IMG/VR virus record: IMGVR_UViG_3300032315_000416
Span: 1 to 57,772 of that record
Length of the DNA: 57,772 bases
DNA from: a virus
Strand: one strand, 5' to 3'
Shown: positions 17,208 to 44,099 of the stretch, one piece after another
Layout: each line of letters starts with the position of its first letter
Position numbering within the stretch: the first letter of the stretch is position 1
Position numbers and translations under genes: made by a program
Notes under the pieces: model-generated
The model's input: only the letters and a program-made list of their open reading frames with translations
Database searches by the model: none
Told to the model about the DNA's origin: nothing

Positions 17208-17441
17208 TTATCTGTCGACTTTTTTATCTAGTTTATCTTCAATACGATGAAGGGCTTTTAGTACTTCATTCCAACGATCATTAAAGTCGTCTTTGTGTAC
17301 ATAGTGGGTTGGCAACTCCTCGCGAAGTTTGGCTAAATCGTCTTTTAGATCTTGGACGGCTGTCCATAGTTCTCTGCAGAACCAACCAAGCACGCCGCAG
17401 ATGATGGGTATTGCAATGTTAAATAGTTCTTGCATGTCCAT
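17208..17441 (-). CDS. Small membrane protein with C-terminal coiled coil
   Basis: A 77-aa protein with one N-terminal hydrophobic segment (about 7-27, IAIPIICGVLGWF) and a charged helical C-terminus with heptads ending KLDKKVDR. The N-anchored single-pass topology fits an i-spanin or an antiholin, and it is in the lysis operon, starting at the stop of the S74 fibre gene (1-bp overlap). Which lysis role it plays cannot be told from the sequence. Confidence 0.7.
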   Translation of the reverse strand: MDMQELFNIAIPIICGVLGWFCRELWTAVQDLKDDLAKLREELPTHYVHKDDFNDRWNEVLKALHRIEDKLDKKVDR

Positions 17442-18799
17442 TATTGAGCCGCTTTCAATGCATCAATTTCGGCTTTGAGTTCTTGAATTGCTTTAACCAA
17501 ATACGCTGTTAAATTAAGATCAAGCGCTTTTATTGTCTCTTGGCCCTGCGGCACAAATTGTTTATATTTTTCTGGAACAATCGTTTCTATAGTATGCCCA
17601 GGAAAAATTGTTTCAAACTCCTGTGCAATAAAACCAGTTTTAGTTTCACCAATTTTATCTTTGTATTCAAAATGAATTGGTTTAAGGGAGTTTATTTTAT
17701 CTAGTGCGCTTGTTATTGAGCGAACATTTGTTTTTATGTTGTTGTCTGATATGGTAGACCAGTTGGGCGAATTGCTAGCTTGGAAATTACCGCCAGTTGA
17801 AAAGTACACAGAACCAAAACTTCCACCTACGTTAAAGTAAAAAATATTACCGCTGCCGGTAGATGAAATTGTGTTAATAGAAGAACCAATACCAACGTTA
17901 TTGGATTGCAGCGCTGAATATCCACCGGCGTTTGTGCAAGTGACAAGTCCAATAGCAGTCACGCCAGTAACAGAAATGCTAGGTGATCCCGTCAGTCCTG
18001 CGGCTGTTGTTGCGCTATTTGCAGTATTTGCGCTATTTGCAGTATTTGCGCTGCTTGCGCTGCCGGCTGATGTTGCAAATGATGCGCTGGCCGCAGTGCC
18101 GCTAATGTTAATACCCCACGTGCCAGATGCGCCAGTGCCGTTTGGTTGTGGCGGTGTGTAACCAAGTGCTGTAGTAACTTGACCAGAGGTTAAACCAGTG
18201 GCGTTGACAATATTAACAGATGTTGGTGTGCCAAGAATTGGAGTCACTAGCGTTGGGGAAACATTGCATACCATTACGCCAGTTCCTGTAGAACCAGTTA
18301 CCGCACCAGCGCCGTTTGCTAAGCCAATGGTTGGTGTGGTTGTGCCAGTTACAGTGACAGGGAATGCTGCGTTGACTGCGGTTACACCGCCACCGCCGCC
18401 ACCTGCGGGGGTAGCCCACACTCCATCGCCACGCCAAAAGGTTGTGGCTGACGCGCTGGTGCCGCTGTTAAGATTACCGACTGGCAGATTGCCCGTGACC
18501 TGCGAGGCTAGGTTAACGTTTGACAGTGTGCCGCCCAGTGTCAGGCTGCCCGTGGATGTTACGGTGCCTGTCAGCGTCAGACCGTTTACTGTGCCAGCCC
18601 CAGATACGCTGGTGACCGTTCCGCCACCCGATCCGGCAGAGGTAAGCAGTTGGACCGCGCCGGCATTGTTTTTGTAGTACAGCTTTCCGTCAACTACGTT
18701 AAGCGCTAGTTCGCCTACCGTTAAGTCCGCAGCAAGCGGAACCGACAGTGCGGTCGTGCTGTGGTAAAGCTGAATGGGTGTGAAGCCGGTCTGAGCCAT
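17441..18799 (-). CDS. Tail fibre with C-terminal S74 intramolecular chaperone
   Basis: A 452-aa fibre protein. The N-terminus (about 1-60) has the [19 protein letters not shown] type start common to phage fibres, followed by Ser/Thr/Gly-rich beta repeats. The C-terminal about 110 residues are an endosialidase-type chaperone (Peptidase_S74): [12 protein letters not shown] with the Ser-Asp pair near 347, FIAQEFE, and a terminal helix. This domain trimerises the fibre and then cuts itself off. It starts at the stop of the glycosyltransferase gene (1-bp overlap). Confidence 0.9.
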
Positions 18800-19845
18800 T
18801 ATAGTTCCTCGTAAAACTTTAGGTTAGTTTTTAATCGTCCGTCGGTCGGGTTCATCTCTAGCGCCATCCGACCGTACTTAATTGCTTCTTCTTTAAATTT
18901 TAAGTGATAGGCAGCAATGGCTATTACGTCTGGTAGCATGAACCCCCACGCCTGCGGGGCGCCAGTGTGCTGTGCTATGTTTTGTGTTATCTCTATTGCG
19001 TTCTTGCCTGCGCCGTAGCACTCTGCCCAGCGATGCTTTTCGTAGCAAAGCATCGCCAAATCGTACCAGTTTTCTCGTATGCCAGGCTCTTCTGCTACCG
19101 CCTTACGAAACCATGCAATACCTGGTTGCTGCATTTTTTCCAATGACGCGCCAATCATGCGCATCGTGTGGCTTCTCTCTAGCGTCCACGTCGCTGTAGG
19201 AAGCGTTAGGTATCGTTTTAATTCGTCGACAGCCTCTTGCCATCTAAACTTAAACGTCAGCTCCCTGCCGTAATAGTAGCAGCTACGGTGGCAGTTTTGG
19301 TCTTCCTTTACCGCCATTTCCAAGAGCTCTAGGTATAACCCCCTTGGTTTTGTGTCGTCTGGTTTGTGTGTCATCATCACAAAGGACGTATGGCCGCAAG
19401 TGTCTGTTACCCTAGAATCCGGCATGATGTACTCATGACAGGGAAACTTCCAATAGTAACCGTGACGATTGTGCGCTCTGGACGGGTAGAAGACTCGGTT
19501 CTCACCAAAGTCAAACCCAATGTTAAGACGGGTTATGTCTTCGCTCCAGCACTGCTCAATCTCTTTACGCCATCCAGGGAGTAGCATCTCGTCCAAGTCC
19601 ATAGAGACGCAGATATCCACGTCAGCAGGGACGAGCGCTAGGGCCGCGTTACGGGCCACATCAAACCTAAACGGCGTAACATTAATCTGGTGTACCTGCG
19701 CACCACAATCCTTAGCCATTTCAACGGTCTTGTCAGTGGAGCCAGTATCGGCTATTACTATAAGATCTGCATCTTTTGCTGACTCACAGAACCGTTTAAC
19801 ATGTAATTCTTCGTTTTTTGCAATTGCATATACAGCAATTTTCAT
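18799..19845 (-). CDS. Family 2 glycosyltransferase with C-terminal TPR-like helices
   Basis: A 348-aa GT-A enzyme. DTGSTDKT (33-40) and the metal-binding D83-L-D85 mark the nucleotide-sugar binding domain (about 1-210). The rest is helical with TPR-like spacing (about 210-345). The acceptor is unknown. It is the first gene of the lysis/fibre unit, directly upstream of the S74 fibre and overlapping it by one base, so glycosylation of that fibre or of host surface glycan is possible. The leader is about 22 nt from the predicted +1, with a GGAG ribosome site. Confidence 0.88.
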
Positions 19846-20342: not shown

Positions 20343-21104
20343 TTATAAACCTATTTGCGTATTTAAATTTTTGCAAACTGATTGTAGATTATCGGGTAAG
20401 TCAATGTCAATTTTTCTTTCTGTAATGTTATTTCTAATGTCGTGCTGCCCATTTAAGCCATAAACAGAATCGTCTTCTTGATGTTGCTGAACAATATTTA
20501 ATAAATTGTGTTCAAAAAAATCTAACTCAAAAAAACTGTAAATCTTTTTTAACGAGTTTTGTGTATCAGAAACTAAATCTTTGTACGATAAAAATAAAAA
20601 CATTTCATTGTTATTTTGATTAACTGTATTAACAACCCCAGAGTAAGACCGCATAATTGGCTCGCTACCATCTTGTAAAAGCGAGTACGCCATAGTTGGA
20701 TTAAACTTTTTATTTTCTGTATACAGATTTATAAACGATTTAACAATTTCCTCTATTGGCCTAACCAAAACAATAATTTTTGGTTTATCTGTAATGTACT
20801 CTTTTATCAACTTAATATTTGGTTCTAATGTCCATGATCTACACTTGTCTAAAACATTGGGTTTTGTAGTGTTTTTGTAATATAAATCTGGAATTGTTTT
20901 TACTATTTCATTGGCAATATCTTGTTTTTTGTTAGCTTGTATTTGCTCTGCCGCATATTCATTAATTGAAACATGGTTGTCCCAAAGCATTTGACATACA
21001 GCAGAATTGCCTTCTGCATGAATTTGTGGGTTTTGGTCTAAAATAGCCGAGAGTAGGGTTGACCCGGCCCTCGGCAATCCGCTTAAAAAAAAGTAATTTT
21101 TCAT
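20343..21104 (-). CDS. Sulfotransferase (PAPS-dependent)
   Basis: A 253-aa P-loop-like sulfotransferase that would move a sulfonate group from PAPS to a hydroxyl or amine. The 5'-phosphosulfate loop is LSGLPRAGSTLLSAIL (7-22), and KIIVLVRPIEEIVKSF (about 107-122) fits the 3'-phosphate-binding strand-helix. There is no signal or membrane segment, so it acts in the cytoplasm. Its start abuts the stop of the Gly-rich fibre gene. It is more AT-rich than its neighbours, which suggests separate acquisition. The substrate is unknown; the adjacent fibre or host glycan are candidates. Confidence 0.88.
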   Translation of the reverse strand: MKNYFFLSGLPRAGSTLLSAILDQNPQIHAEGNSAVCQMLWDNHVSINEYAAEQIQANKKQDIANEIVKTIPDLYYKNTTKPNVLDKCRSWTLEPNIKLIKEYITDKPKIIVLVRPIEEIVKSFINLYTENKKFNPTMAYSLLQDGSEPIMRSYSGVVNTVNQNNNEMFLFLSYKDLVSDTQNSLKKIYSFFELDFFEHNLLNIVQQHQEDDSVYGLNGQHDIRNNITERKIDIDLPDNLQSVCKNLNTQIGL

Positions 21105-22286: not shown

Positions 22287-23126
22287 TTATTTTTCTAATC
22301 CCAGTTCTTTGCGTATTTTGGTAGCAGAGATAGCGTGGGTTGTGTCGTCAAATGTTTCTTGCTCTATTTTGTAGCCAACATCGCGCCCGTAGGTGATATT
22401 GACAATATTCGGTACTACCTGTATTTCATACTGCCCTTGAAACAGTGGATCTAGGTCACGCTTGATGTAACTCTTCACTTGCTCAATGGCAAATGGGTTT
22501 GATCCCTGCCAACCTTGGCAGTCGCGGATCTGAATCACCACTTGCCCCGTTTTGGCTATAGCACGTTCAAAGAGCGCTCTATGCCCAGCGTGCCAAGGTT
22601 GCCATCTACCTAGCATCTGAACCGTTTCTGTCTGCCAGTTAAACACCGGACGCCTGCGGTTCTCAATAATGTGATTGCCAATAAACTCGGCCCACTTCTC
22701 GCAGTTCTGCTCCGTCACCCGGAAGTCATACACCTCTGGCTGCACGAACGCCTTGTTCGTATCTTCAAAGCGACCAGCATCAATCGTATCCATCCAGATT
22801 GTCCAGTCCGCTTTGAAGTTATTACGCATCTCGACCAAAGGAGCAACAAAGTCGCAAATTACATAATCGCCGCCAGCAGACAGGGCAAACTCAGCCATCC
22901 TTAACGATTGACGGATACGACCTTCTTTAGAGAAGTCCCAATCGTTGTACTTCTTACGCACTTCATCGGCATTGAACCAAGTTACTTGGCAATTCAAATC
23001 GCCCATGTACTGGTTCAAAGCACGACCGTATGACATCTCGCCATGCTCTTCTAGATAGGCTTTTAGGGCCTGTGCTAGGTACGTCTTGCCTGAGCCGGGT
23101 AGGCCCATGATTAGTATCTTTTTCAT
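22287..23126 (-). CDS. Fusion of APS-kinase-like and adenylyl/cytidylyltransferase-like domains
   Basis: A 279-aa two-domain enzyme. The N-domain (1-~150) has Walker A GLPGSGKT (8-15), FNADEVR (51-57) and FSKEGR, and FVAPLVEMR, as in adenylylsulfate kinases that make PAPS. The C-domain (~160-279) has GRWQPWHAGH (173-182) and ISATKIR (266-272), the HxGH and signature motifs of NMN/pantetheine-type nucleotidyltransferases. Two sulfotransferases occur in the same unit, so PAPS supply is an attractive role. The kinase may instead act on another small substrate. It overlaps the methyltransferase stop by 4 bp. Confidence 0.8.
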   Translation of the reverse strand: MKKILIMGLPGSGKTYLAQALKAYLEEHGEMSYGRALNQYMGDLNCQVTWFNADEVRKKYNDWDFSKEGRIRQSLRMAEFALSAGGDYVICDFVAPLVEMRNNFKADWTIWMDTIDAGRFEDTNKAFVQPEVYDFRVTEQNCEKWAEFIGNHIIENRRRPVFNWQTETVQMLGRWQPWHAGHRALFERAIAKTGQVVIQIRDCQGWQGSNPFAIEQVKSYIKRDLDPLFQGQYEIQVVPNIVNITYGRDVGYKIEQETFDDTTHAISATKIRKELGLEK

Positions 23127-23674
23127 GATTTAATTGCCCTTGCGTAGATGTGGAGTTGATAACATGCGTTATTATACCTGCTCATTTCCCGATCCACAAC
23201 ATCCCTAGGTTGTCCTTGCATACCCCGTTGGAACCAAGGTGATAAATCATAATGCACACCCTCCACCTCAATGTCAATCCCAAGCTGTAAACCTAATGTC
23301 GTTTCCTGACCGTTTTCCTCAATCGTTTGCCGATTTTTCTTCTGGCTAAACATGTTAATACCTACCGGCGTCACCTTGCGCACATGGGTGGGATCATGGT
23401 GAAAGTTCTCATGATTCCAATGTGGCACGGTGATTTTTAGCTCGCCGTTGGGTTTAAGAATTCGGTACAGTTCTTTCCATATTGAAAAGTACGTGTTTAC
23501 ATCCTGACCAAGGTGCTCCAATACATGGAACATAATGATCTCGTCAACAGAACTGTCCTCAAACGGTAGCGGCTTTTCTAAATCCGCAACGATATCAGGG
23601 TTACAGTTTGGGTCATGGTCCACATTGACGTACCCGGGAAATTTATTGTAGCCGCAGCCTAAGTTTAGTTTCAT
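23123..23674 (-). CDS. SAM-dependent methyltransferase, class I
   Basis: A 183-aa Rossmann methyltransferase. Motif I is LNLGCG (3-8), with acidic D20 (NVDHD) after strand 2, FHVLEHL as motif IV and a PNGELKITVPHW strand. The family (Methyltransf_11/23 type) includes enzymes acting on sugars and lipids. There is no DNA-target recognition domain, so it is probably not a DNA methylase. It is coupled to the APS-kinase-like fusion, within the fibre-modification cluster. The substrate is unknown. Confidence 0.85.
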   Translation of the reverse strand: MKLNLGCGYNKFPGYVNVDHDPNCNPDIVADLEKPLPFEDSSVDEIIMFHVLEHLGQDVNTYFSIWKELYRILKPNGELKITVPHWNHENFHHDPTHVRKVTPVGINMFSQKKNRQTIEENGQETTLGLQLGIDIEVEGVHYDLSPWFQRGMQGQPRDVVDREMSRYNNACYQLHIYARAIKS

Positions 23675-23693: not shown

Positions 23694-24140
23694 TTAAACG
23701 CCGTTGGCAATCTGGTTGTTATCCAGTTCTTGCTGAATGATGTTTAACTGTTCTTGGGTAGTTGCCACATCAATCTGTGCCTTGATGGTTTCGTAGCGAG
23801 TTTGCGCTGCAGCAACAATCGCTGGATCGTAGTGGTCGGCTGGGTTGCTGTTGGTTTCTAAGGCAACTTGACCTGCTACAACCGCATCAAACTGCTGGGC
23901 TGCTTGGCTGTACTTACCGCCTTTTTGCTCGTCAATTGTGAAGTCAAACAGTGTCCAAGTAATTTCTACTGGGTCTAGATCGCAATGATAGACTGGGCCA
24001 TTAAGTCCTTGCTGATACGGGATCGGCGTTGGCTTGATCTCAACTGCGTTTTTCCAGCCGTTTGTACCGACTGGTGAGGGTGGCGTAGTGTCGATGCACT
24101 GAGCCATTTGGTTGTTTACTACTTGTACGTATAATGCCAT
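23694..24140 (-). CDS. Tail-fibre-associated protein (putative chaperone)
   Basis: A 148-aa protein with an N-terminal beta part (MALYVQVVNNQMAQCID) and a helical C-terminus (about 75-145) rich in Gln/Ala. The size and position, directly after an RCC1 propeller gene, resemble fibre-assembly accessory proteins, but the match is weaker than for the 130-aa protein at 19903. An ATTAA-rich leader of 16 bp separates it from the propeller gene. Confidence 0.6.
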   Translation of the reverse strand: MALYVQVVNNQMAQCIDTTPPSPVGTNGWKNAVEIKPTPIPYQQGLNGPVYHCDLDPVEITWTLFDFTIDEQKGGKYSQAAQQFDAVVAGQVALETNSNPADHYDPAIVAAAQTRYETIKAQIDVATTQEQLNIIQQELDNNQIANGV

Positions 24141-24156: not shown

Positions 24157-25308
24157 TTAAGTTGATGCTATTGCTAAAACAGAATTACCTGAAAATCCCT
24201 TTCCAACAGTTATCCATGAGGTCAAAGACCCAACTTGTTTAGGTGACGAATACCTAGTTCTGTTTCCTAAACCTAAATTGCCAAATCCGTTAGTACCCCA
24301 AGACCACAAAGTTCCGTCTGTTTTATTTCCAAAACAGGATCGATAACAAGCAGTTACTTGAATCCAATTGGTCAAAGATCCAACCTGTTTAGGGGAGGAG
24401 TAGTATGTTCTATTTCCAAGACCTAATTGTCCAAAAAGATTTGCTCCCCAAGACCATAAAGTATTATTATTTTTTACAGCACAAGCAAAATCTTCCCCAG
24501 CCATTATTTGCGTCCAATCAGTTAAAGAGCCGACCTGTACGGGAGAAGAATAATTTGTTCTATTTCCTAAACCTAACTCACCAAGAGAATTTTGACCCCA
24601 AGACCATATAGTTCCGTCTGTTTTAATTGCAAATGTAGAAAATTTATTAGAAACTATTTGTGACCAAGTAGTTAAAGCACCCACCTGCTTAGGGGAAGAA
24701 TAATAGGTTCTGTTATTAAGACCTAATTGTCCAACATTATTTTGCCCCCAAGCCCATAAAGTTCCATCGGTTTTTATTGCTTTTGTGTTTCCTCTACCGC
24801 AAGAAACTTGTGACCAACCGGTTAAAGAACCAACTTGTTTGGGGGATGAATAATTTGTAGTGTTTCCAAGACCTAAAGCGCCTTGAGTATTTGTTCCCCA
24901 TCCCCAAAGTGTACCGTCTGTTTTTATAGCCATAGTATGATAAACAGACGAAATATTTAACCAGTTAGTAAGAGATCCTACCTGCTTAGGGGATGAGTAA
25001 TAGGTTAGGTTATTTAAACCTAATTGACCGGAATCATTTTTCCCACATGCCCACAATGTCCCATCGGTTTTTGTAGCAAGAAAAACATCAGTTCCACTGG
25101 TAATATTTTGCCAATTTGCAAATGATCCAACCTGTTTAGGAGATGAATAATAAGTGGTGTTGCCAAGTCCTAATTGACCTTGATTATTTCTGCCCCAGCT
25201 ATATAGGTATCTTAAAGGCACAGGCCAAGTTCCAGCTCCCTTAGCTGCGCTTGCTGCGCTTAGCTTCCAGATGCCGCCGTATTGGGTATATGGGTAGACT
25301 ATTGGCAT
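24157..25308 (-). CDS. RCC1 seven-bladed propeller protein (B type, copy 2)
   Basis: A 383-aa protein with seven RCC1-like repeats, each about 50 aa with the pattern LWxWGxNxxGQLGLGN, SSPKQVG and AIKTDG. Seven such blades close a beta-propeller. The start chosen is ATG 25308 (MPIVYPY), because it follows the upstream stop as TAATATG and the N-terminal NMPI-PY-YGGIW segment recurs in the protein at 28220. Longer forms would need a TTG. The short N-terminal peptide looks like a virion anchor, so the propeller is a likely receptor-binding tip. RCC1 propellers bind proteins or glycans elsewhere; the ligand here is unknown. Confidence 0.85.
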   Translation of the reverse strand: MPIVYPYTQYGGIWKLSAASAAKGAGTWPVPLRYLYSWGRNNQGQLGLGNTTYYSSPKQVGSFANWQNITSGTDVFLATKTDGTLWACGKNDSGQLGLNNLTYYSSPKQVGSLTNWLNISSVYHTMAIKTDGTLWGWGTNTQGALGLGNTTNYSSPKQVGSLTGWSQVSCGRGNTKAIKTDGTLWAWGQNNVGQLGLNNRTYYSSPKQVGALTTWSQIVSNKFSTFAIKTDGTIWSWGQNSLGELGLGNRTNYSSPVQVGSLTDWTQIMAGEDFACAVKNNNTLWSWGANLFGQLGLGNRTYYSSPKQVGSLTNWIQVTACYRSCFGNKTDGTLWSWGTNGFGNLGLGNRTRYSSPKQVGSLTSWITVGKGFSGNSVLAIAST

Positions 25309-25309
25309 A

Positions 25310-26434
25310 TTATAAATTTGTTCCAAAAGAAAAAGTCATACCAGTTCCCACTACAGACCATGGAGCCAGACCACCTACTTGGTTTGGTGAGGAACTGTTG
25401 ATTGTAGAACCAAGACCTAGTTGCCCTTGAGCATTACTTCCCCATGTCCATAAAGTGCTATCGGTTTTAATTGCCACGCAATGATTTGATCCGACAGCAA
25501 TATTTGACCAGTTAGTTAAAGCGCCAATTTGTACTGGAGATGATCTGTTTGTTGTGTCTCCTAAACCTAATTGACCTTGATTGTTTTGCCCCCAAGCCCA
25601 TAAAGTTCCGTCTGTTTTTATTGCCGCAGTAAAATAAAAACCACCTGCTGCCCTTAGCCAATTTGTTAAAACTCCGACTTGTTTTGGGGAAGAATACCTA
25701 GTTGTATTTCCCAATCCTAATTTACCTGCAGTATTGTCACCCCACACCCACAAAGACCCATCTGTTTTAACAGCTAAACAATTTTGATACCCAGCGCTAA
25801 TAGCCAACCAATTTGTCAACGAACCAACTTGTTTAGGGGAGGAATAGCTAGTTGTATTTCCTAGACCTAAATTACCATAAAAATTATAACCACAAGCATA
25901 TAATTGACCTGTGGTTGTAATTGCCGCCATGAATGTTGAATTAACAGCAACAGTTGACCAATTATTTAGTAAACCAACCTGTACTGGTGAAGATCTGTCT
26001 GTAGTATCTCCAAGACCCAATTGACCGTTAAAATTTCCACCCCAAGTCCATAAGGTTCCGTCTGTTCTAATAGCTGCACAAAAACCACCTCTTGAAGCAA
26101 CAGATGACCAAGTTGTCAAAGACCCAACCTGCTTAGGTGATGAATAGGATGTGTTATTACCAAGCCCTAGTACTCCAGAGCTACCAGACCCCCAACACCA
26201 AAGAGTACCATCTGTTTTAATTGCAGCAGTATTGTAATACCCTCCAGCAATTTTTAACCAATTAGTTAAAGAACCAACTTGCGCTGGGGATGATTTTCCT
26301 ACACGGTCATTTAAACCTAGTTGACCTTGAGTATTAGCCCCCCAACCGTATAAATAGTAAGTATTAGTGCCAGTGGGTGCAACCAAGGTGTTTAGCCCTG
26401 GTTTAATCATGGCGTTGGCATACCGATAGCTCAT
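25310..26434 (-). CDS. RCC1 seven-bladed propeller protein (A type, copy 2)
   Basis: A 374-aa protein with seven RCC1 repeats. Several repeats differ from the common form (ACGYNFYGNLG, WGSGSSGVLG), so the blades are diversified. The N-terminus MSYRYANAMIKPG is related to MSLRYTGAWLQ of the A-type copy at 29397. The start codon overlaps the stop of the sulfotransferase-glycosyltransferase gene (TAATG). The probable role is a tail-fibre or tip protein. It is coupled to the B-type propeller that follows it. Confidence 0.85.
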   Translation of the reverse strand: MSYRYANAMIKPGLNTLVAPTGTNTYYLYGWGANTQGQLGLNDRVGKSSPAQVGSLTNWLKIAGGYYNTAAIKTDGTLWCWGSGSSGVLGLGNNTSYSSPKQVGSLTTWSSVASRGGFCAAIRTDGTLWTWGGNFNGQLGLGDTTDRSSPVQVGLLNNWSTVAVNSTFMAAITTTGQLYACGYNFYGNLGLGNTTSYSSPKQVGSLTNWLAISAGYQNCLAVKTDGSLWVWGDNTAGKLGLGNTTRYSSPKQVGVLTNWLRAAGGFYFTAAIKTDGTLWAWGQNNQGQLGLGDTTNRSSPVQIGALTNWSNIAVGSNHCVAIKTDSTLWTWGSNAQGQLGLGSTINSSSPNQVGGLAPWSVVGTGMTFSFGTNL

Positions 26435-28206
26435 TAACTTACCATTCTTATTTGTGGCTGTTCAGCGTGGAGTTTCATTTTAATTCTCTCAAATGGGGCT
26501 ATCCAGTCGCCAAATGTTTCTTGGCGGAACAGCGTCATGCAATCATAATACGGGCATTTTTCACCATCCAGAGCATACAAGTAGTAACCCATAACAGGGA
26601 TAACTACCCAAGTCTCAACGCCCATTGCCGCCGCTAAATGACTGACGGAGGTACACGAACTGATAACTAAATCACAGCTTGCTGCCGCATTTTGCGTATC
26701 TTGCCAGCTATCTAATGGTACTCGTTTTACCCAAGGCGGGCAAGCATCTGCACCCTCATCACGCTGCAATGAGATGAACTCATAGTCCGCACCTTGCACT
26801 GCATCAAACAGCATCTGATACGGAAACTTCTTATTATGGTCATCTTCAAACTTACTGTTACCTTGCCAACGTAAACCAATGCGTTTTTTACGTCCTTTGA
26901 TGACATTTGGCTTAGGGATGTATGGAGTGCCAGATAGGTCTGACATCTCGTATCCAAGGTAGTTTGGGGCCACCATCGCAAACGCCCAGAAGTCGTGGTA
27001 AATGCCGTACTCAGCGCCGTGCTGGATAACCGCAGAGACACCTTCAACTTGCGAGAAGAGCTGTGCCAATGGGCCAGAACAGCAAACAATCACCTTGTTA
27101 CCACGCGCAACTAAGTCTTTAGCGTAACGCACCTGGTGGATCTGATCGCCTAATCCGTGGTCACAATATAGCAAGATAGTGCCTTTAGAACGTCCGTCCC
27201 ACTCTGGCATCGGGGTATCAGGGTGGCGCTCACCAATAATCCCGCAGAATCGACCACGATCCATTTCTTTGTAACCTTCACGAACTTTACCCTGTTTGAG
27301 TAAGTACCATGAGCGGTTGTACGCAGCACGGTGATCGGTTGGGCGCTCTTTGTTTAACTTCTCGGCTAATCTCCAGCCTTCTACAAAGTCGCCCATCTTA
27401 CCTGCGGCTAACTGTAAATCCAAGTCATCCAAGTTAGGGATGGTGCGCTTGTTGTCGTTCCAGAACTCAGGCTGGCAGAACTGGTTATAGTGGTGCTTTA
27501 ATAAGTCATGCGAGTCATCGTTGTGCTGTTTCTTTAATTCTGGTTTGATGTCGTGCATACCAGCATAGCCATGTAAATTCTCGTCGTCTTCTTTGACTGA
27601 GCTGCCGTCAATGTTAGACAGATCGTACTCAAACGGGGCCAGACCTAAGAACTCGTGAATGCGGTCAAGTTCGGTTTTTGGGTTGGCTAATAGGTTATCG
27701 TACTCCACAAACAAGAAGCACTCTGGCATGGCTTCATAGCCTTGCTGCAATGAAATATAGGCTGCCTTTAAATGGTCGGCAAGCTGACCAGAATACATAA
27801 ACTCATCTAAATTCTCAGGCTTGGCAACCCGTACAAAGGAAGCCATACAGTCTGGCACTGGGCGCACGGTAGCAATAATCTTAGGAGCATGTCCGAGTAC
27901 CTGAGTCATAGCACCCATAATGATCGGAATGGGCCAACCACGCCCTTTATCAATCACCACTGGCTTATCGGTATCTTCATAGAACGCATCAATCATGCCG
28001 CGCATGGTCTGCGCTAGTTTCTTACGGTCTGGATCGTTCTCATTCAAAAGACCAGCAGAGTGCCAGGTGTTAGCCAAGCCATCTAAAGCGTGAACTAAAC
28101 CAGATGTTGTAGAGACATGCGTCTCTGGGTTCTGATTAAGGATTGCCGCTAAGACTGTAGAGCCAGAGCGAGGAATACCTGATAAGAAATGCAATGTTTT
28201 TTTCAA
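26434..28206 (-). CDS. Sulfotransferase-glycosyltransferase fusion
   Basis: A 590-aa fusion. Residues about 1-255 are a sulfotransferase: FLSGIPRSGSTVLAAIL (8-24) is the 5'-phosphosulfate loop and KIIATVRPVPDCMASF fits the 3'-phosphate site. About 265-325 is helical and TPR-like (AAYNRSWYLLKQGKVREG). About 340-580 is a GT-B glycosyltransferase of the TPR-linked type: LYCDHGLGDQIHQVRYA, then IGLRWQGN and SSCTSVSHLAAAMGVETWV for nucleotide-sugar binding. It lies between two pairs of RCC1 genes, so it may glycosylate and sulfate them. The substrate is unproven. Confidence 0.85.
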   Translation of the reverse strand: MKKTLHFLSGIPRSGSTVLAAILNQNPETHVSTTSGLVHALDGLANTWHSAGLLNENDPDRKKLAQTMRGMIDAFYEDTDKPVVIDKGRGWPIPIIMGAMTQVLGHAPKIIATVRPVPDCMASFVRVAKPENLDEFMYSGQLADHLKAAYISLQQGYEAMPECFLFVEYDNLLANPKTELDRIHEFLGLAPFEYDLSNIDGSSVKEDDENLHGYAGMHDIKPELKKQHNDDSHDLLKHHYNQFCQPEFWNDNKRTIPNLDDLDLQLAAGKMGDFVEGWRLAEKLNKERPTDHRAAYNRSWYLLKQGKVREGYKEMDRGRFCGIIGERHPDTPMPEWDGRSKGTILLYCDHGLGDQIHQVRYAKDLVARGNKVIVCCSGPLAQLFSQVEGVSAVIQHGAEYGIYHDFWAFAMVAPNYLGYEMSDLSGTPYIPKPNVIKGRKKRIGLRWQGNSKFEDDHNKKFPYQMLFDAVQGADYEFISLQRDEGADACPPWVKRVPLDSWQDTQNAAASCDLVISSCTSVSHLAAAMGVETWVVIPVMGYYLYALDGEKCPYYDCMTLFRQETFGDWIAPFERIKMKLHAEQPQIRMVS

Positions 28207-28219
28207 AACGTTATGTCCT

Positions 28220-29395
28220 TTATGGTGTTATTTTTGCTATGCCTATAGCAGAATCTCTATTTCCTGCAATATTATCCCAAGTTGTTAGCGAACCAACTTG
28301 CACAGGGGAACTGTAGTTTGTTGTATTTCCTAAACCAATCTGTCCATTCGCTCCAGATCCCCAGCCCCATAAAGTGCCGTCAGTTTTGATGGCAAATAAA
28401 CCACTTAAACGAACAGCAATTTTAGACCAATTGGTTAAACTGCCGACTTGTTTGGGGGATGAATAAGACGTTGTGTTTCCAAGACCTAATTGTCCAGAGG
28501 TATTAGCTCCCCATGTCCAGATTGTTCCATCGGATTTAAGTGCAAATGAAAAACTTCCGTGTGCTGCAACATTAGCCCAATTAGTTAGTGACCCCACTTG
28601 TTTGGGGGATGAATAGTTGGTTATATTTCCAAGGCCTAATTGACCGGCTTGATTTCTTCCCCAAGACCATAGTGTGCCGTCTGTTTTTACAGAAATTGTA
28701 TGAAAGCCGCCATTAGCAACTTTGCTCCAGTTTGTAAGAGAACCGATTTGCACAGGTGAATTTACATCAGTAGATCCACCATTACCAATACCCCCAAAAA
28801 GATTTCTGCCCCAAGCCCACAAAGATCCGTCTGTTTTTATTGTGGAGCAGGAATCTAAAACGCAAGAAATATACGCCCAATTTGTTAACGAACCAACTTG
28901 TTTAGGAGAGGAATAAGATGTTGTATTACCAAGACCTAATTGACTATCACTTCCACCACCCCATGTCCAAATAGTGCCGTCTGTTTTAAGTGATAGGCAA
29001 CTAATGCCTCCGCACTGTATTTTTGACCAATTTGTAAGAGAGCCAACTTGTTTTGGTGATGAGTAGTTAGTTAAGTTTCCAAGACCAAGTTGTCCATAAC
29101 TTACATTATTTTGACCCCAGGTCCATAATGTGCCGTCTGTTTTAATAGCGCCAGAAAAATATGAATACCCAGCGGAAACTTCAAGCCAAGTTGTTAAATT
29201 ACCAATTTGTGTTGGTGACGACTTTGATACAGTTGTGCTATCACCAATGCGGCCGTCAGTACCGATTCCCCAAGTGTATAAATAAGGCACAGGAGGGGGT
29301 GGTGGCACAGGCCACTTATTCTGCGCCCGAGCATCAGCAGCTTGGTCTGTTGTCCAGATGCCGCCGTATCTAATGTAGGGAAAAGTTATTGGCAT
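28220..29395 (-). CDS. RCC1 seven-bladed propeller protein (B type, copy 1)
   Basis: A 391-aa protein with seven RCC1 repeats. The start is taken as ATG 29395 (MPITFPY) following the upstream stop as TAATATG, the same junction as at 25308; a longer form needs GTG. The N-terminal anchor-like segment (MPI-FPY-RYGGIW, then a KWPVPPPPP linker) precedes the first blade. Blade 1 (IGTDGRIGDSTTVSKSS) and blade 4 (FGGIGNGGSTDVNS) are the most divergent. Next in the operon is the sulfotransferase-glycosyltransferase fusion. Confidence 0.85.
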   Translation of the reverse strand: MPITFPYIRYGGIWTTDQAADARAQNKWPVPPPPPVPYLYTWGIGTDGRIGDSTTVSKSSPTQIGNLTTWLEVSAGYSYFSGAIKTDGTLWTWGQNNVSYGQLGLGNLTNYSSPKQVGSLTNWSKIQCGGISCLSLKTDGTIWTWGGGSDSQLGLGNTTSYSSPKQVGSLTNWAYISCVLDSCSTIKTDGSLWAWGRNLFGGIGNGGSTDVNSPVQIGSLTNWSKVANGGFHTISVKTDGTLWSWGRNQAGQLGLGNITNYSSPKQVGSLTNWANVAAHGSFSFALKSDGTIWTWGANTSGQLGLGNTTSYSSPKQVGSLTNWSKIAVRLSGLFAIKTDGTLWGWGSGANGQIGLGNTTNYSSPVQVGSLTTWDNIAGNRDSAIGIAKITP

Positions 29396-29396
29396 A

Positions 29397-30545
29397 TTAT
29401 AAGGATAGTGCCATTGACACATATCCGCCGTTTATTTTATCTGGTAGCGCACCCCAGGTGGTTAATGCACCAACTTGTTTTGGAGAGGAGATTCCGGTGT
29501 ATGAGCCAACATTGTCCAAATAGCCTAGTTCACCGAACCTATTTCTACCCCAAGACCAGAGAGTACCATCGGTTTTTGTTGCATAACCATAATAGCCTCC
29601 GCCGGCAACATCTAACCAATTTGTAAGCGCACCAATCTGATTTGGAGAAGATCTGTTAGTAGTGTTTCCGAGACCTAGTTGCCCATAATTATTATATCCC
29701 CAAGACCATAGTGTGCCATCTGTTTTAATAGCAAATACAACTCTTACAGCATTACCTTTTGCTTTTGACCAGTTGGTTAAAGATCCTACTTGTTTTGGTG
29801 ATGAATAATATGTTGTGTTACCTAAGCCTAATTCGCCAAAGCCATTTTGCCCCCAACCCCACAGTGTGCCGTCAGTTTTAACTGCAATAGCAGAGTTTTG
29901 ACTGCCATTTATGTTTGCCCAATTAGTTAGAACTCCAACTTGTTTTGGTGATGAGTATTCTGTTCTGTTGCCTAAGCCTAATTGACCATCACCATTTCGC
30001 CCCCAAGACCATAGAGTACCGTTAGTTTTAACTGCAAAACTACTGTAACCCCCGCAACCAACTTGTAACCAATCTGTTAGTGAACCAACTTGTTTTGGTG
30101 AAGAATAATATGTTAAATTGTTAAGTCCTAGTTGACCGCTATTGTTATTTCCCCATGTCCAAAGTGTGCCGTCAGTTTTTGTTGCAACAGTATGATACCT
30201 AATTGCTATGTTCAACCAATTAGTTAAGGATCCGACTTGTTTTGGGGATGAGTAGTTTGTTCTGTTGCCTAAACCTAATTGCCCACGATTATTAGAACCC
30301 CAAGTCCATAAAGTTCCGTCACTTTTAATAGCTGCACACTGTGTGTCCCCAGTTGAAATTTTTGCCCAATTTGTCAACGATCCAACCTGTTTGGGGGAAG
30401 AATAATTAGTCCTATTTCCTAAACCCAATTGACCACTTGAATTTAATCCCCAAGAATACAAATAATATTGAAAAATGGGTGAGGGGGCGTTAAGCGGATC
30501 AAATGCTCCGTTTTGTAGCCAAGCTCCTGTGTAACGCAGGGACAT
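29397..30545 (-). CDS. RCC1 seven-bladed propeller protein (A type, copy 1)
   Basis: A 382-aa protein with seven RCC1 repeats, the most regular of the four. The start chosen is ATG 30545 (MSLRYTGAW), placed one base after the upstream stop (TAAGATG); the longer form needs TTG. Blade 7 carries an insertion (GYLDNVGSYTG). The DNA repeats between blades and between paralogues are similar enough to support recombination. Confidence 0.85.
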   Translation of the reverse strand: MSLRYTGAWLQNGAFDPLNAPSPIFQYYLYSWGLNSSGQLGLGNRTNYSSPKQVGSLTNWAKISTGDTQCAAIKSDGTLWTWGSNNRGQLGLGNRTNYSSPKQVGSLTNWLNIAIRYHTVATKTDGTLWTWGNNNSGQLGLNNLTYYSSPKQVGSLTDWLQVGCGGYSSFAVKTNGTLWSWGRNGDGQLGLGNRTEYSSPKQVGVLTNWANINGSQNSAIAVKTDGTLWGWGQNGFGELGLGNTTYYSSPKQVGSLTNWSKAKGNAVRVVFAIKTDGTLWSWGYNNYGQLGLGNTTNRSSPNQIGALTNWLDVAGGGYYGYATKTDGTLWSWGRNRFGELGYLDNVGSYTGISSPKQVGALTTWGALPDKINGGYVSMALSL

Positions 30546-30546
30546 C

Positions 30547-30951
30547 TTAGGTGATCGCTTCAAATATTGCTGTATAGGTCAAGGCGTTTGCTGTGCCTGA
30601 CTGTACCGCAAGTGATTGGTTCTCCGTGATGTAGAGGTCTGTAGTCTTATCAACTACGATCAAAGATGCATTGGCTGGTACTGAAATCTGATACGCCAGG
30701 TACGAGATTATGGTAGCCGAGCCAAAGGTTGCATTGTTACCAACCGCTACGGTTGCTGCGGCGGCAGAAGCTGTCGTATTAGACACGATCAAGCCAGTAA
30801 TCTTATGTACCGTGTTAGCGGCTGGGTTAAGACCAGCATCTGCGGTAGTACCGTCAAATGTCCAGCTAGTCGTTACGCCTGTAGTAGACGGAACAACATA
30901 CGCTGTCTGTCCTCTAATTGTGGTTAGTGCTGCAATATTTGGGTTTGCCAT
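30547..30951 (-). CDS. Small beta-rich virion protein
   Basis: A 134-aa protein of Ala/Thr/Val-rich beta sequence (GLIVSNTTASAAAATVAVG). Such short jelly-roll-like proteins are usually head decoration or tail-tip proteins. It starts one base after the collagen-like fibre gene and is followed directly by the first RCC1 gene. No family was recognised; the structural role is inferred from location and composition. Confidence 0.7.
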   Translation of the reverse strand: MANPNIAALTTIRGQTAYVVPSTTGVTTSWTFDGTTADAGLNPAANTVHKITGLIVSNTTASAAAATVAVGNNATFGSATIISYLAYQISVPANASLIVVDKTTDLYITENQSLAVQSGTANALTYTAIFEAIT

Positions 30952-30952
30952 T

Positions 30953-32641
<1,689 letters not shown>

Positions 32642-41646: not shown

Positions 41647-43092
41647 CTATTGGGCATAGGGATTTGAATATCTTTTTGCTGCGTCTTCGTCTGCGTAGTC
41701 GTAATCGCGGGCTGGTAGGGGGTCAAGTCGTACCCAACCCGAATCCCGCAATACGCGCAATGCTTGGGACAGGGAGTCAACATAGTCATCGTGCCCGCCT
41801 GCTTCTGGAAACGAACATACCTGCCGGACGAACCGTTTGGCCCAGTCTGCAAAGTCACCTTTGAGCTTCATGTCTTCCGGTATGTACACTTTGCCCTTAG
41901 CTACAAGGGGTGCCACAATGTTAACCCGCTGCACCTTATCTGCGCGCCCAGGGTTGTATCCACGGACAGGTACGCCCGCGCCTTGGAGTTCTTGGATCAG
42001 CGAGATACCAGCGGATTTGTCTTCCATCAGGATCAGGTCGGCTTTACGACCCTTGCCAAACTCGTTATCTGCGCCGTAGACCACTTCCTTAAAGTCATCA
42101 ATTACCTTACGACGCAGCTCGGGGTAGGACATGTGCGCGTCCCATGCATCTAGCAGTATGATCGAAGTGCCTGCGTCTAACTGTTCAAACACGCCCCATA
42201 CCGTACACGCCGTTGGGTCGTTGGTTGTCTTTTCTGAGGTAGCCGGATCGTAGCTGGCGATCACATACTCAAGGTCTGGGGTTGCTCGGTTGGCCGGCCA
42301 CATCCTAAACTGCTTGCGTTTGATAATACCAGCGGCTTCTGGATCCAAGATCTCGCCATAGATCTCTTGTCTGCCTAGGTCTGTGCCATCGTAGGTCTCA
42401 AGCTGTTTGAAAAACGTTTCGGACAGGTTGGCGCGGTTGTCGTACGATGAGGCGTTTGCTACATAAACGTCCCCGCCTACCTTTCCCTCGTTGAGATCAA
42501 CGATGAGCTCTTTGGGCTTGGGAGTGGTGGTAATAATCTGCTGCACTCGAGGGATTCGCGGGTCCTTAAGACGGAGGGTAAACTGTACGCCGTCGTAGGC
42601 ATCATCGATGTAATCGAACGCACACAGCTCGTCGAACCAAGCGCCATGGTACTGCTTACCACGGTACCGTTCTGGCTCGGATGCTGGAATACCTTGGATG
42701 ATGGATCCGTTCGTAAGGGTAATCTCAAAGAGTGACTTGTTGTAATCTCGTATAAGTGACGAGGGGATGATATTAATAAGTCCGGAGTCTCCTTCAAAAC
42801 AAGTTGCGCGTATATCATTTGAGGTAGGGGCTGTGACCAGCCAACGAGTGTTATCGTACATCCAAGCACGAATGCCAATCCAATGACTAGCCGTATGCGT
42901 CTTGCCTGATCCTCGACCAGCCAACATAAGAAACGTATCATACTCTCCATCCTCTGGTTCTCTTTGGTGCGGAAGTGCTTGCAAGTGCCACTTAACCTGC
43001 CATAGGGCAGCATCAAGCTGTTGCTTGGGCCAGTGCTTGTGCGACTCCGCGAATTTTTTAAGTATTGCTTCTTGTTTCGGTGTTAACGACAT
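41647..43092 (-). CDS. terL: Terminase large subunit
   Basis: A 481-aa DNA-packaging motor. The N-terminal ATPase has Walker A LAGRGSGKT (about 57-65) and a GAWFDELCAF Walker B region. The C-terminal RNase H-like nuclease starts with YVIASYDPATSEKTTND, in which the first Asp is a metal ligand, and ends with the GGHDDYVDSLSQALR motif. It is in the Terminase_6 group. There is no intein insertion in this gene although a stand-alone intein-like gene lies directly upstream (10-bp overlap). No small subunit was recognised. Confidence 0.93.
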   Translation of the reverse strand: MSLTPKQEAILKKFAESHKHWPKQQLDAALWQVKWHLQALPHQREPEDGEYDTFLMLAGRGSGKTHTASHWIGIRAWMYDNTRWLVTAPTSNDIRATCFEGDSGLINIIPSSLIRDYNKSLFEITLTNGSIIQGIPASEPERYRGKQYHGAWFDELCAFDYIDDAYDGVQFTLRLKDPRIPRVQQIITTTPKPKELIVDLNEGKVGGDVYVANASSYDNRANLSETFFKQLETYDGTDLGRQEIYGEILDPEAAGIIKRKQFRMWPANRATPDLEYVIASYDPATSEKTTNDPTACTVWGVFEQLDAGTSIILLDAWDAHMSYPELRRKVIDDFKEVVYGADNEFGKGRKADLILMEDKSAGISLIQELQGAGVPVRGYNPGRADKVQRVNIVAPLVAKGKVYIPEDMKLKGDFADWAKRFVRQVCSFPEAGGHDDYVDSLSQALRVLRDSGWVRLDPLPARDYDYADEDAAKRYSNPYAQ

Positions 43093-44099
43093 GGTATGAA
43101 CCCTTCTCCTACGAGAATGTGATTGAACTTACCCTCAGTTTCGATGTACACACAAGACTGGGGGTTAAGTGGCTCAATTAATTTGGGGTACCGCCTGCCA
43201 AGCTGGATTTTAGTTTTCGATAAATCTTGGTTGGGTACCAAATCGAGCTTTGATTTAAAAAAAAGTATGTAGTTCGAACAACGTTGGTTGTGTTCCAAGG
43301 TAGTTTTACTACCCAGTGATTCGATTATAGACTGAACCTGCACCAAGAGTCGCAAATTTTTACTGGAAACCCGAAATATATTCTTTTGTCTGGAGTATTG
43401 CCGGCTTTTTGCTGCTAAGATGCCTTGCAACAGCTCAATACGCTGCTCTTCGGACGCCAAGAGGTAATTGTTTGGTATTTTGGTAGGCACATTGGGTGCC
43501 AATTGCAACTCAATCGATGGCGAAACCGTAAAGTACCGCTCGTTGTTGGGTGTTTTAGCGCCCACAATGACTTTGTACCCACAATCCTTGAAGCGCTGTA
43601 TGATCTCTTCCTGCCGATTCTTACTAAAGATCATTTTATTGTGTAATTTTCTATTAAAAAACCAATAGCCAAACACAAATGGAGGGATAGGCAGCGTTTG
43701 ATGGGGGAGTTTTAACGGATGGGCAGTAGGAACCGATATCAATCGTATTCCAGGGACCTTCTTTAGCGGCCTGTCTTTCAGTTTGTCTACCGTTATGTCG
43801 CCTAACGGACGCCTAAACTTAAACCTGCCCTTATACAGCGACACCCTACAGCGGTACTTGTGGTTCTCAAACGGGAAGTTGAGCTTCTCGTCGCCCGAAA
43901 CAGTAAGGTGGTCGTTGAAGGTAACCTGATAGCAGTTCTCCGCACGGTACTTCTGTACCAGGGTTACTTTAACTAGGTCGCCAGTTTGATTAAATACATA
44001 ATCGCCAACCTGAATCTTCTCTGCTGGCTTCCAGTAGTCAAGCGTTAGTACTTTTTCCGTTGCTAATATTGCCATAAAAATTCTCGAGGACCCATTCAT
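43083..44099 (-). CDS. Stand-alone degenerate intein-like (Hint + LAGLIDADG) protein
   Basis: A 338-aa protein with an intein's layout but no splicing residues. The Hint N-half (about 11-85) has EKVLTLDYWKPAEKIQVGDYVF and CYQVTFNDHLTVSGDEKLNF, where the first-position Cys is replaced by Ala/Thr and the TxxH His is replaced. The centre resembles a two-motif LAGLIDADG nuclease with both acidic motifs lost: FGYWFFNRK in place of a GYWLGDG motif, and EEQRIELLQGILAAKSRQ in place of an LLQGLMDTDG motif. The C-terminus (KFNHILVGEGFIPCR) lacks the intein His-Asn. It is probably a domesticated intein beside terminase. An alternative start is ATG 44075. The function is unknown. Confidence 0.8.
   Translation of the reverse strand: MNGSSRIFMAILATEKVLTLDYWKPAEKIQVGDYVFNQTGDLVKVTLVQKYRAENCYQVTFNDHLTVSGDEKLNFPFENHKYRCRVSLYKGRFKFRRPLGDITVDKLKDRPLKKVPGIRLISVPTAHPLKLPHQTLPIPPFVFGYWFFNRKLHNKMIFSKNRQEEIIQRFKDCGYKVIVGAKTPNNERYFTVSPSIELQLAPNVPTKIPNNYLLASEEQRIELLQGILAAKSRQYSRQKNIFRVSSKNLRLLVQVQSIIESLGSKTTLEHNQRCSNYILFFKSKLDLVPNQDLSKTKIQLGRRYPKLIEPLNPQSCVYIETEGKFNHILVGEGFIPCR

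Follow-up and report, generated by a model that had tools for sequence, protein, structure and literature searches.

Genes surrounding the fusion

The window analysed here is an entire IMG/VR virus record of 57,772 nucleotides (57.8 kb), from a lake-water phage. Positions 26434..28206 on its minus strand hold a single frame of 590 amino acids, in which a sulfotransferase domain, a TPR segment and a GT-B glycosyltransferase domain are joined in one protein. The frame opens with a TTG codon preceded by AAGGA (close relatives start with ATG), and its stop codon shares letters with the start of the next gene in a TAATG overlap. The fusion gene belongs to the genome's structural half, where its neighbours follow one another closely and in places overlap. 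In gene order, a collagen-like tail fibre (30953-32641) is followed by a 134-aa protein (30547..30951, minus strand), which is the first conserved gene of the cassette and is found upstream in nearly all fusion loci. Two RCC1 propeller proteins come next (29397..30563 and 28220..29422, both minus strand), then the fusion, two further RCC1 proteins (25310..26434 and 24157..25326, both minus strand), a 148-aa protein (23694..24140, minus strand), a SAM methyltransferase (23123..23674, minus strand) and an APS-kinase-like gene, beyond which lie further genes, among them a tail-fibre S74 protein.

Judged by the Pfam profile PF00415, all four RCC1 assignments are very strong, with E-values of 5.7e-70, 2.8e-67, 5.7e-75 and 5.7e-68 in the order given (1e-67 to 1e-75). 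The methyltransferase (PF08241, 3.6e-9) is of the type fused to the glycosyltransferase in sister phages. The 148-aa protein is kept after the RCC1 genes across loci, and family searches with it, Pfam included, gave no match. A preliminary description of this DNA had reported a sulfotransferase, a TPR-like linker and a GT-B half in one 590-aa frame, placed exactly between two RCC1 pairs. Its coordinates proved exact, and the minus strand is added here; the domain reading is borne out by PF13469, PF00685 and the structure matches described below, and the pairs, at 29397 and 28220 and at 25310 and 24157, are supported by Pfam. Elsewhere in the window, a minus-strand frame at 43083-44099 overlaps the start of the terminase gene and appears intein/Hint-like by eye, with no Pfam match at 1e-3. 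A GT2 glycosyltransferase whose C-terminal part gave a TPR-like match (18799-19845, minus strand; phrog_13126, E 1e-94) adjoins a Peptidase_S74 tail fibre at 17441-18799.

A short-peptide scan of IMG/VR recovered 71 full-length or end-cut homologues of the fusion at 68-94% identity, and a profile scan found 405 IMG/VR stretches encoding relatives. Since the 71 matching loci lie on independent contigs, an artefact of assembly or reading frame was rejected. Only two contigs matched in GTDB: L148, which carries portal and major head genes together with its genome's only RCC1 matches, and L147, 3.2 kb long, which has an RCC1 neighbour of its own. The fusion is essentially absent from bacterial genomes, and on the evidence of these two contigs, one with portal and head genes, we rejected a bacterial origin or bacterial members of the family. 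In a quick tree of 100 glycosyltransferase domains, the sulfotransferase fusion formed one clade (SH-aLRT 99) and a fusion of the TPR-glycosyltransferase to a methyltransferase formed another (98), the two being neighbours within a wider, unfused TPR-glycosyltransferase family. The tree requires a single origin of the fusion, and repeated independent fusions were therefore rejected. At L338 (4725-6548), homologies to both halves are spread over three overlapping frames, possibly reflecting a frameshifted fusion or a sequencing error.

Domain structure and conserved positions

An AlphaFold model of the fusion built from 82 divergent viral-locus sequences (pLDDT 93.9, pTM 0.80) superseded an earlier, mediocre model made with close homologues only (pLDDT 70.6). 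A shared fold does not prove function, and the functional case is built on conserved positions.

The sulfotransferase domain occupies residues 1-258 (27433..28206, minus strand) and scored above the Pfam cut-offs for both PF13469 (7.9e-15; 56.1 bits, cut-off 27) and PF00685 (4.7e-07; 29.9 bits, cut-off 22). Its best PDB matches were tyrosylprotein sulfotransferases (Z 19.8 to TPST1, 242 residues, 3.8 A), with polyketide, heparan and cytosolic sulfotransferases ranked behind them. The 5'-phosphosulfate loop, GIPRSGST, corresponds to residues 10-17, and the 3'-phosphate site to R115 and S123. G10, R13, R89, W91, R115, S123 and H218 are invariant in 38 divergent sulfotransferases (37-38 with a letter at the site), and the PAPS-binding R13, R115 and S123 are thus present in every member with a letter there. 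The PAPS loop, the lysine and the 3'-phosphate residues of TPST align to R13, K87, R115 and S123 of the fusion. Glu99, which we take to be the catalytic base of TPST2, aligns to Thr34, by sequence alignment only, and T, S or N stands there in 38/38 divergent members; by this alignment the catalytic Glu of TPST is absent from the sulfotransferases of this family. Because Thr34 holds the Glu99 position, we did not file the fusion as a TPST. A second, stand-alone sulfotransferase of 253 aa in the window (20343..21104, minus strand) belongs to the same phrog_27463 family, with 31% identity to the fused domain; it has few close relatives in IMG/VR, with one locus, L248, at 51%.

Residues 259-324 (27235..27432, minus strand) make up the TPR segment, which superposed on AspH repeats at Z 11.5 and on those of human OGT at Z 11.2, and the profile of the wider glycosyltransferase family matched consensus TPRs. 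The GT9-like GT-B domain spans residues from about 325 to 590 (26437..27234, minus strand), and residues 328-588 of it matched, by fold in the PDB, WaaC (Z 16.6; rmsd 3.3 over 229 aligned residues), WaaF (16.3), a Veillonella GT9 enzyme (15.5) and TibC (15.4). No Pfam family, Glyco_transf_9 included, matched this half of the window protein; its relative L148 gave a weak Glyco_transf_9 match of 12.9 bits, below the cut-off of 22. Six positions, namely G351, G353 and D354 of a G-x-G-D loop together with G529, Y541 and W568, are invariant in 64/64 divergent glycosyltransferases, and D354, a candidate for the catalytic Asp of GT9 enzymes, sits after the strand formed by residues 343-347. TPR and GT-B parts are joined in one chain, as they are in TPR protein glycosyltransferases of the OGT, SPY and FlmG type.

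Linkage to RCC1 genes and possible donor supply

The association between the fusion and RCC1 genes is reciprocal. Of 164 fusion loci (redundant loci included), 161 had an RCC1 gene no more than 900 bp away and, starting from RCC1, 39 of 56 nonredundant loci carried a glycosyltransferase, a sulfotransferase or both, adjacent in 35; many of the other 17 loci are cut by contig ends. The sister families, in which the TPR-glycosyltransferase is either fused to a methyltransferase or encoded separately from a sulfotransferase, are RCC1-linked too. In BUCT-ZZ01, a 700-aa RCC1 protein directly precedes the methyltransferase fusion, and RCC1 was found just upstream in about 70 of 74 loci of this kind with upstream sequence, the exceptions (L179, L180 and L243) adjoining other long repetitive virion proteins. 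The Synechococcus phage S-SRM01, a cultured phage like BUCT-ZZ01, has one RCC1 before the TPR-glycosyltransferase and another before a sulfotransferase. The order in the marine virus AG-345-E08 is RCC1, RCC1, TPR-glycosyltransferase, RCC1, sulfotransferase; the first four genes recur in 13/13 loci of this type, and the sulfotransferase comes next in every locus long enough to show it.

Among 50,697 phage records, this type of glycosyltransferase occurred in 5, RCC1 matches in 17 and both in 4 (hypergeometric 4e-14, or 1e-10 without duplicates), a calculation that ignores kinship, the RCC1 linkage statistics as a whole being unadjusted for shared ancestry. Bacterial chromosomal RCC1 loci, used as a negative control, had no glycosyl- or sulfotransferase in about 28 cases, a weak comparison with flanks of only about 1.5 kb. 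Phage RCC1 proteins are placed by PHROGs in the category of DNA metabolism, a label that fits neither their location among tail genes nor their neighbours, and our search of the open-licence literature turned up no paper that links RCC1 in phages to glycosyl- or sulfotransferases. Giant RCC1 proteins (frames of >1900 aa that run off the end of the locus) occur directly upstream of the methyltransferase fusion in loci within L168-L247, for example at L169:1-5934. In L152 (8444-9620), two short genes that look 2-oxoglutarate oxygenase-like by eye lie between RCC1 and the TPR-glycosyltransferase and might encode a further modification enzyme.

The preliminary description had also guessed at a protein acceptor linked to the RCC1 genes. 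The protein it singled out is real and unusual, and its guess, partly supported overall, is well supported by comparative genomics (161/164, 39/56 and the sister architectures) and has precedents in FlmG and TibC. This comparative evidence makes an RCC1 target much stronger, though short of proof, and we consider it plausible.

The gene at 22287..23126 (minus strand) encodes APS-kinase-like and NMN-type adenylyltransferase-like domains and is a candidate for PAPS supply. Its APS_kinase match (PF01583, 1.4e-8; 35.4 bits) is above the cut-off of 21.1, extending no further than about position 90 of the 152 in the profile, and its NCBIfam apsK match (1.4e-6) is under the cut-off. Some relatives encode the kinase as a separate protein of about 150 aa, as opposed to its fusion with the adenylyltransferase-like domain in the window. 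Of 30 fusion contigs, 28 had an APS kinase, 27 of these scoring above the cut-off, and of 30 contigs with the methyltransferase fusion one had it, L246, which also bears the sulfotransferase fusion. Comparison of 28/30 fusion contigs with 0/29 that have the methyltransferase fusion only gave a Fisher value of 8e-15, uncorrected for kinship. APS kinase co-occurs with the sulfotransferase form only, indicating that kinase and sulfotransferase travel together; because the fusion phages form one lineage, we regard this co-occurrence as suggestive.

Genes for HldE kinase, HldE adenylyltransferase and HldD lie a few kb from the glycosyltransferase in many loci, and match NCBIfam closely, though just under several cut-offs. 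The HldE adenylyltransferase was found in 8 of 30 fusion contigs, as against 51 of 50,697 phage records. Neither the window contig nor 22 of the 30 fusion contigs yielded hldE, and the donor may therefore be host-derived or another sugar. L235 (3502-5988) and L151 (6037-8600) hold HldE and HldD genes, with a HAD phosphatase in L151, and would provide a phage-borne ADP-heptose pathway beside glycosyltransferase or sulfotransferase genes.

Proposed role and comparison with known systems

We searched the blade motifs of RCC1 for an acceptor residue, and identified none that holds across fusion-bearing phages. Blades in the window's clade read N-x-T-x-Y-S-S-P, with Tyr in 74% and NxT in 75% of blades, and Tyr was found in 91% of NxT blades versus 24% of those without NxT. 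In phages with the methyltransferase fusion, R or K takes the place of this Tyr, and the pattern is weaker in the marine E08-type phages. A wider RCC1 sample showed almost no Tyr at the blade position in the fusion-bearing L300, L303, L305, L309 and L314, and the Asn and Tyr of this motif were rejected as a general acceptor on that ground. The RCC1 genes of the window and of L003-L148 display two lineage-specific blade states, GNxTxYSSPKQVG and GDxTxRSSPVQVG.

We propose that the fusion works in the cytoplasm as a bifunctional enzyme, adding a sugar (perhaps heptose) to RCC1 propellers and sulfate to that sugar, a reading for which we judge the chances to be about even. Domain make-up, conservation and linkage are shown by the comparisons above, whereas the chemistry (catalysis, the acceptor, the donor and the sequence of steps) and the presence of RCC1 proteins in the virion are inferred. 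The fusion would be produced in the infected cell alongside the phage propeller proteins, and its TPR segment would hold the RCC1 beta-propeller protein, as the precedent of FlmG suggests. By analogy with TibC, the GT9-like half may glycosylate several blades, most likely with heptose taken from ADP-heptose. The N-terminal half would transfer sulfate from PAPS, supplied by the phage APS kinase, more likely onto the sugar than onto the protein; sulfation of the sugar is preferred because a methyltransferase replaces the sulfotransferase in the sister family, in the manner of alternative capping modules. Decorated propellers would be built into outer, receptor-facing parts of the particle. A more tentative proposal, which we hold to be possible and somewhat short of probable, is that aquatic phages possess a dedicated post-translational system by which the RCC1 beta-propellers of their particles acquire heptose that is sulfated or, in the sister family, methylated.

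The enzyme could instead add a sulfated sugar to a host surface glycan (LPS or exopolysaccharide), blocking superinfection or the adsorption of progeny to debris, in which case the RCC1 linkage would reflect location in a variable host-interaction module. GT9 enzymes like WaaC, a fold match of the fusion, work on LPS, hldE and hldD are close by in some loci, and glycosyltransferases and rfaE in the tail-fibre regions of pelagimyophages were interpreted by their authors as LPS-modifying (PMC7029224). We nevertheless consider a host glycan, the main rival, less likely as the target than RCC1. The chief reason is that, across several phage lineages, members of the glycosyltransferase family keep to a single kind of neighbour, namely RCC1 or some other giant repeat protein, and that RCC1 loci in turn carry glycosyl- or sulfotransferases. 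In addition, the fusion gene overlaps an RCC1 start codon within a late structural operon, and the TPR segment suggests a protein acceptor.

With tyrosylprotein sulfotransferases as the closest solved folds, the halves might also act separately, the sulfotransferase on RCC1-blade tyrosines, as TPST does, and the glycosyltransferase on another residue or protein. The Tyr that precedes the SSP loop in the window's clade, and the way it tracks NxT (0.91 vs 0.24), would suit such an arrangement, which is made improbable by the five fusion-bearing loci essentially without this Tyr, the absence of an acidic context and the lack of conservation of the catalytic Glu. It is more improbable still that the fusion lacks catalytic activity and serves RCC1 proteins as an assembly chaperone or virion component: strict RCC1 linkage and a TPR segment speak for either, but cofactor and active-site positions are invariant across very divergent members, and APS kinase accompanies the sulfotransferase form only.

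If decoration of RCC1 by the fusion is true, a sulfated sugar on RCC1 would be a type of modification new to phage particles, and phages would have their first sulfated virion glycoprotein system, one enzyme carrying out both the sulfate and the sugar step. No sulfation by phages of their own proteins was found in the open-licence literature. Hundreds of viral contigs have the conserved cassette of enzyme and propeller, cyanophages and marine phages have sister versions of it, and the proposal would give both parts a concrete, testable role, with RCC1 proteins as decorated host-recognition proteins. It may also offer a genomic key for predicting the chemistry of decoration, in which the kinase goes with the sulfotransferase and a methyltransferase swaps for the sulfotransferase. 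A natural enzyme that may both glycosylate and sulfate a defined protein would be useful for glycoengineering.

Among known systems, TPST1/2 are the best structural match of the sulfotransferase half, with PAPS-site residues aligned; the fusion differs from them in Thr34 for Glu99, in being a phage and, as proposed, cytoplasmic protein, and in its other conserved residues (H218, R89 and W91). To our knowledge, the glycosylation of mycobacteriophage virions is unrelated in architecture to the phage fusion. Glycans are carried there at the C-termini of capsid and tail tube proteins, and sulfation goes unmentioned in the accounts of that work given by two later papers (Freeman et al. 2023, via PMC12619734 and PMC10568470). 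TibC is a GT9-type heptosyltransferase whose substrate, a repetitive surface adhesin, is modified at many sites (PMC4358343). The phage fusion resembles TibC in its GT9-type fold, the dodecamer and iron site being features known from TibC; it is phage-borne and joined to a sulfotransferase and a TPR segment, and its neighbours and candidate substrates are RCC1 propellers, unlike the autotransporter beta-helix on which TibC acts. FlmG, the flagellin glycosyltransferase of Caulobacter, is a TPR-GT-B enzyme that binds and glycosylates a protein (PMC7591256). FlmG acts on flagellin and has no sulfotransferase, and the phage fusion resembles it in domain make-up, sharing a TPR part, for which acceptor binding was tested in FlmG, and a GT-B part.
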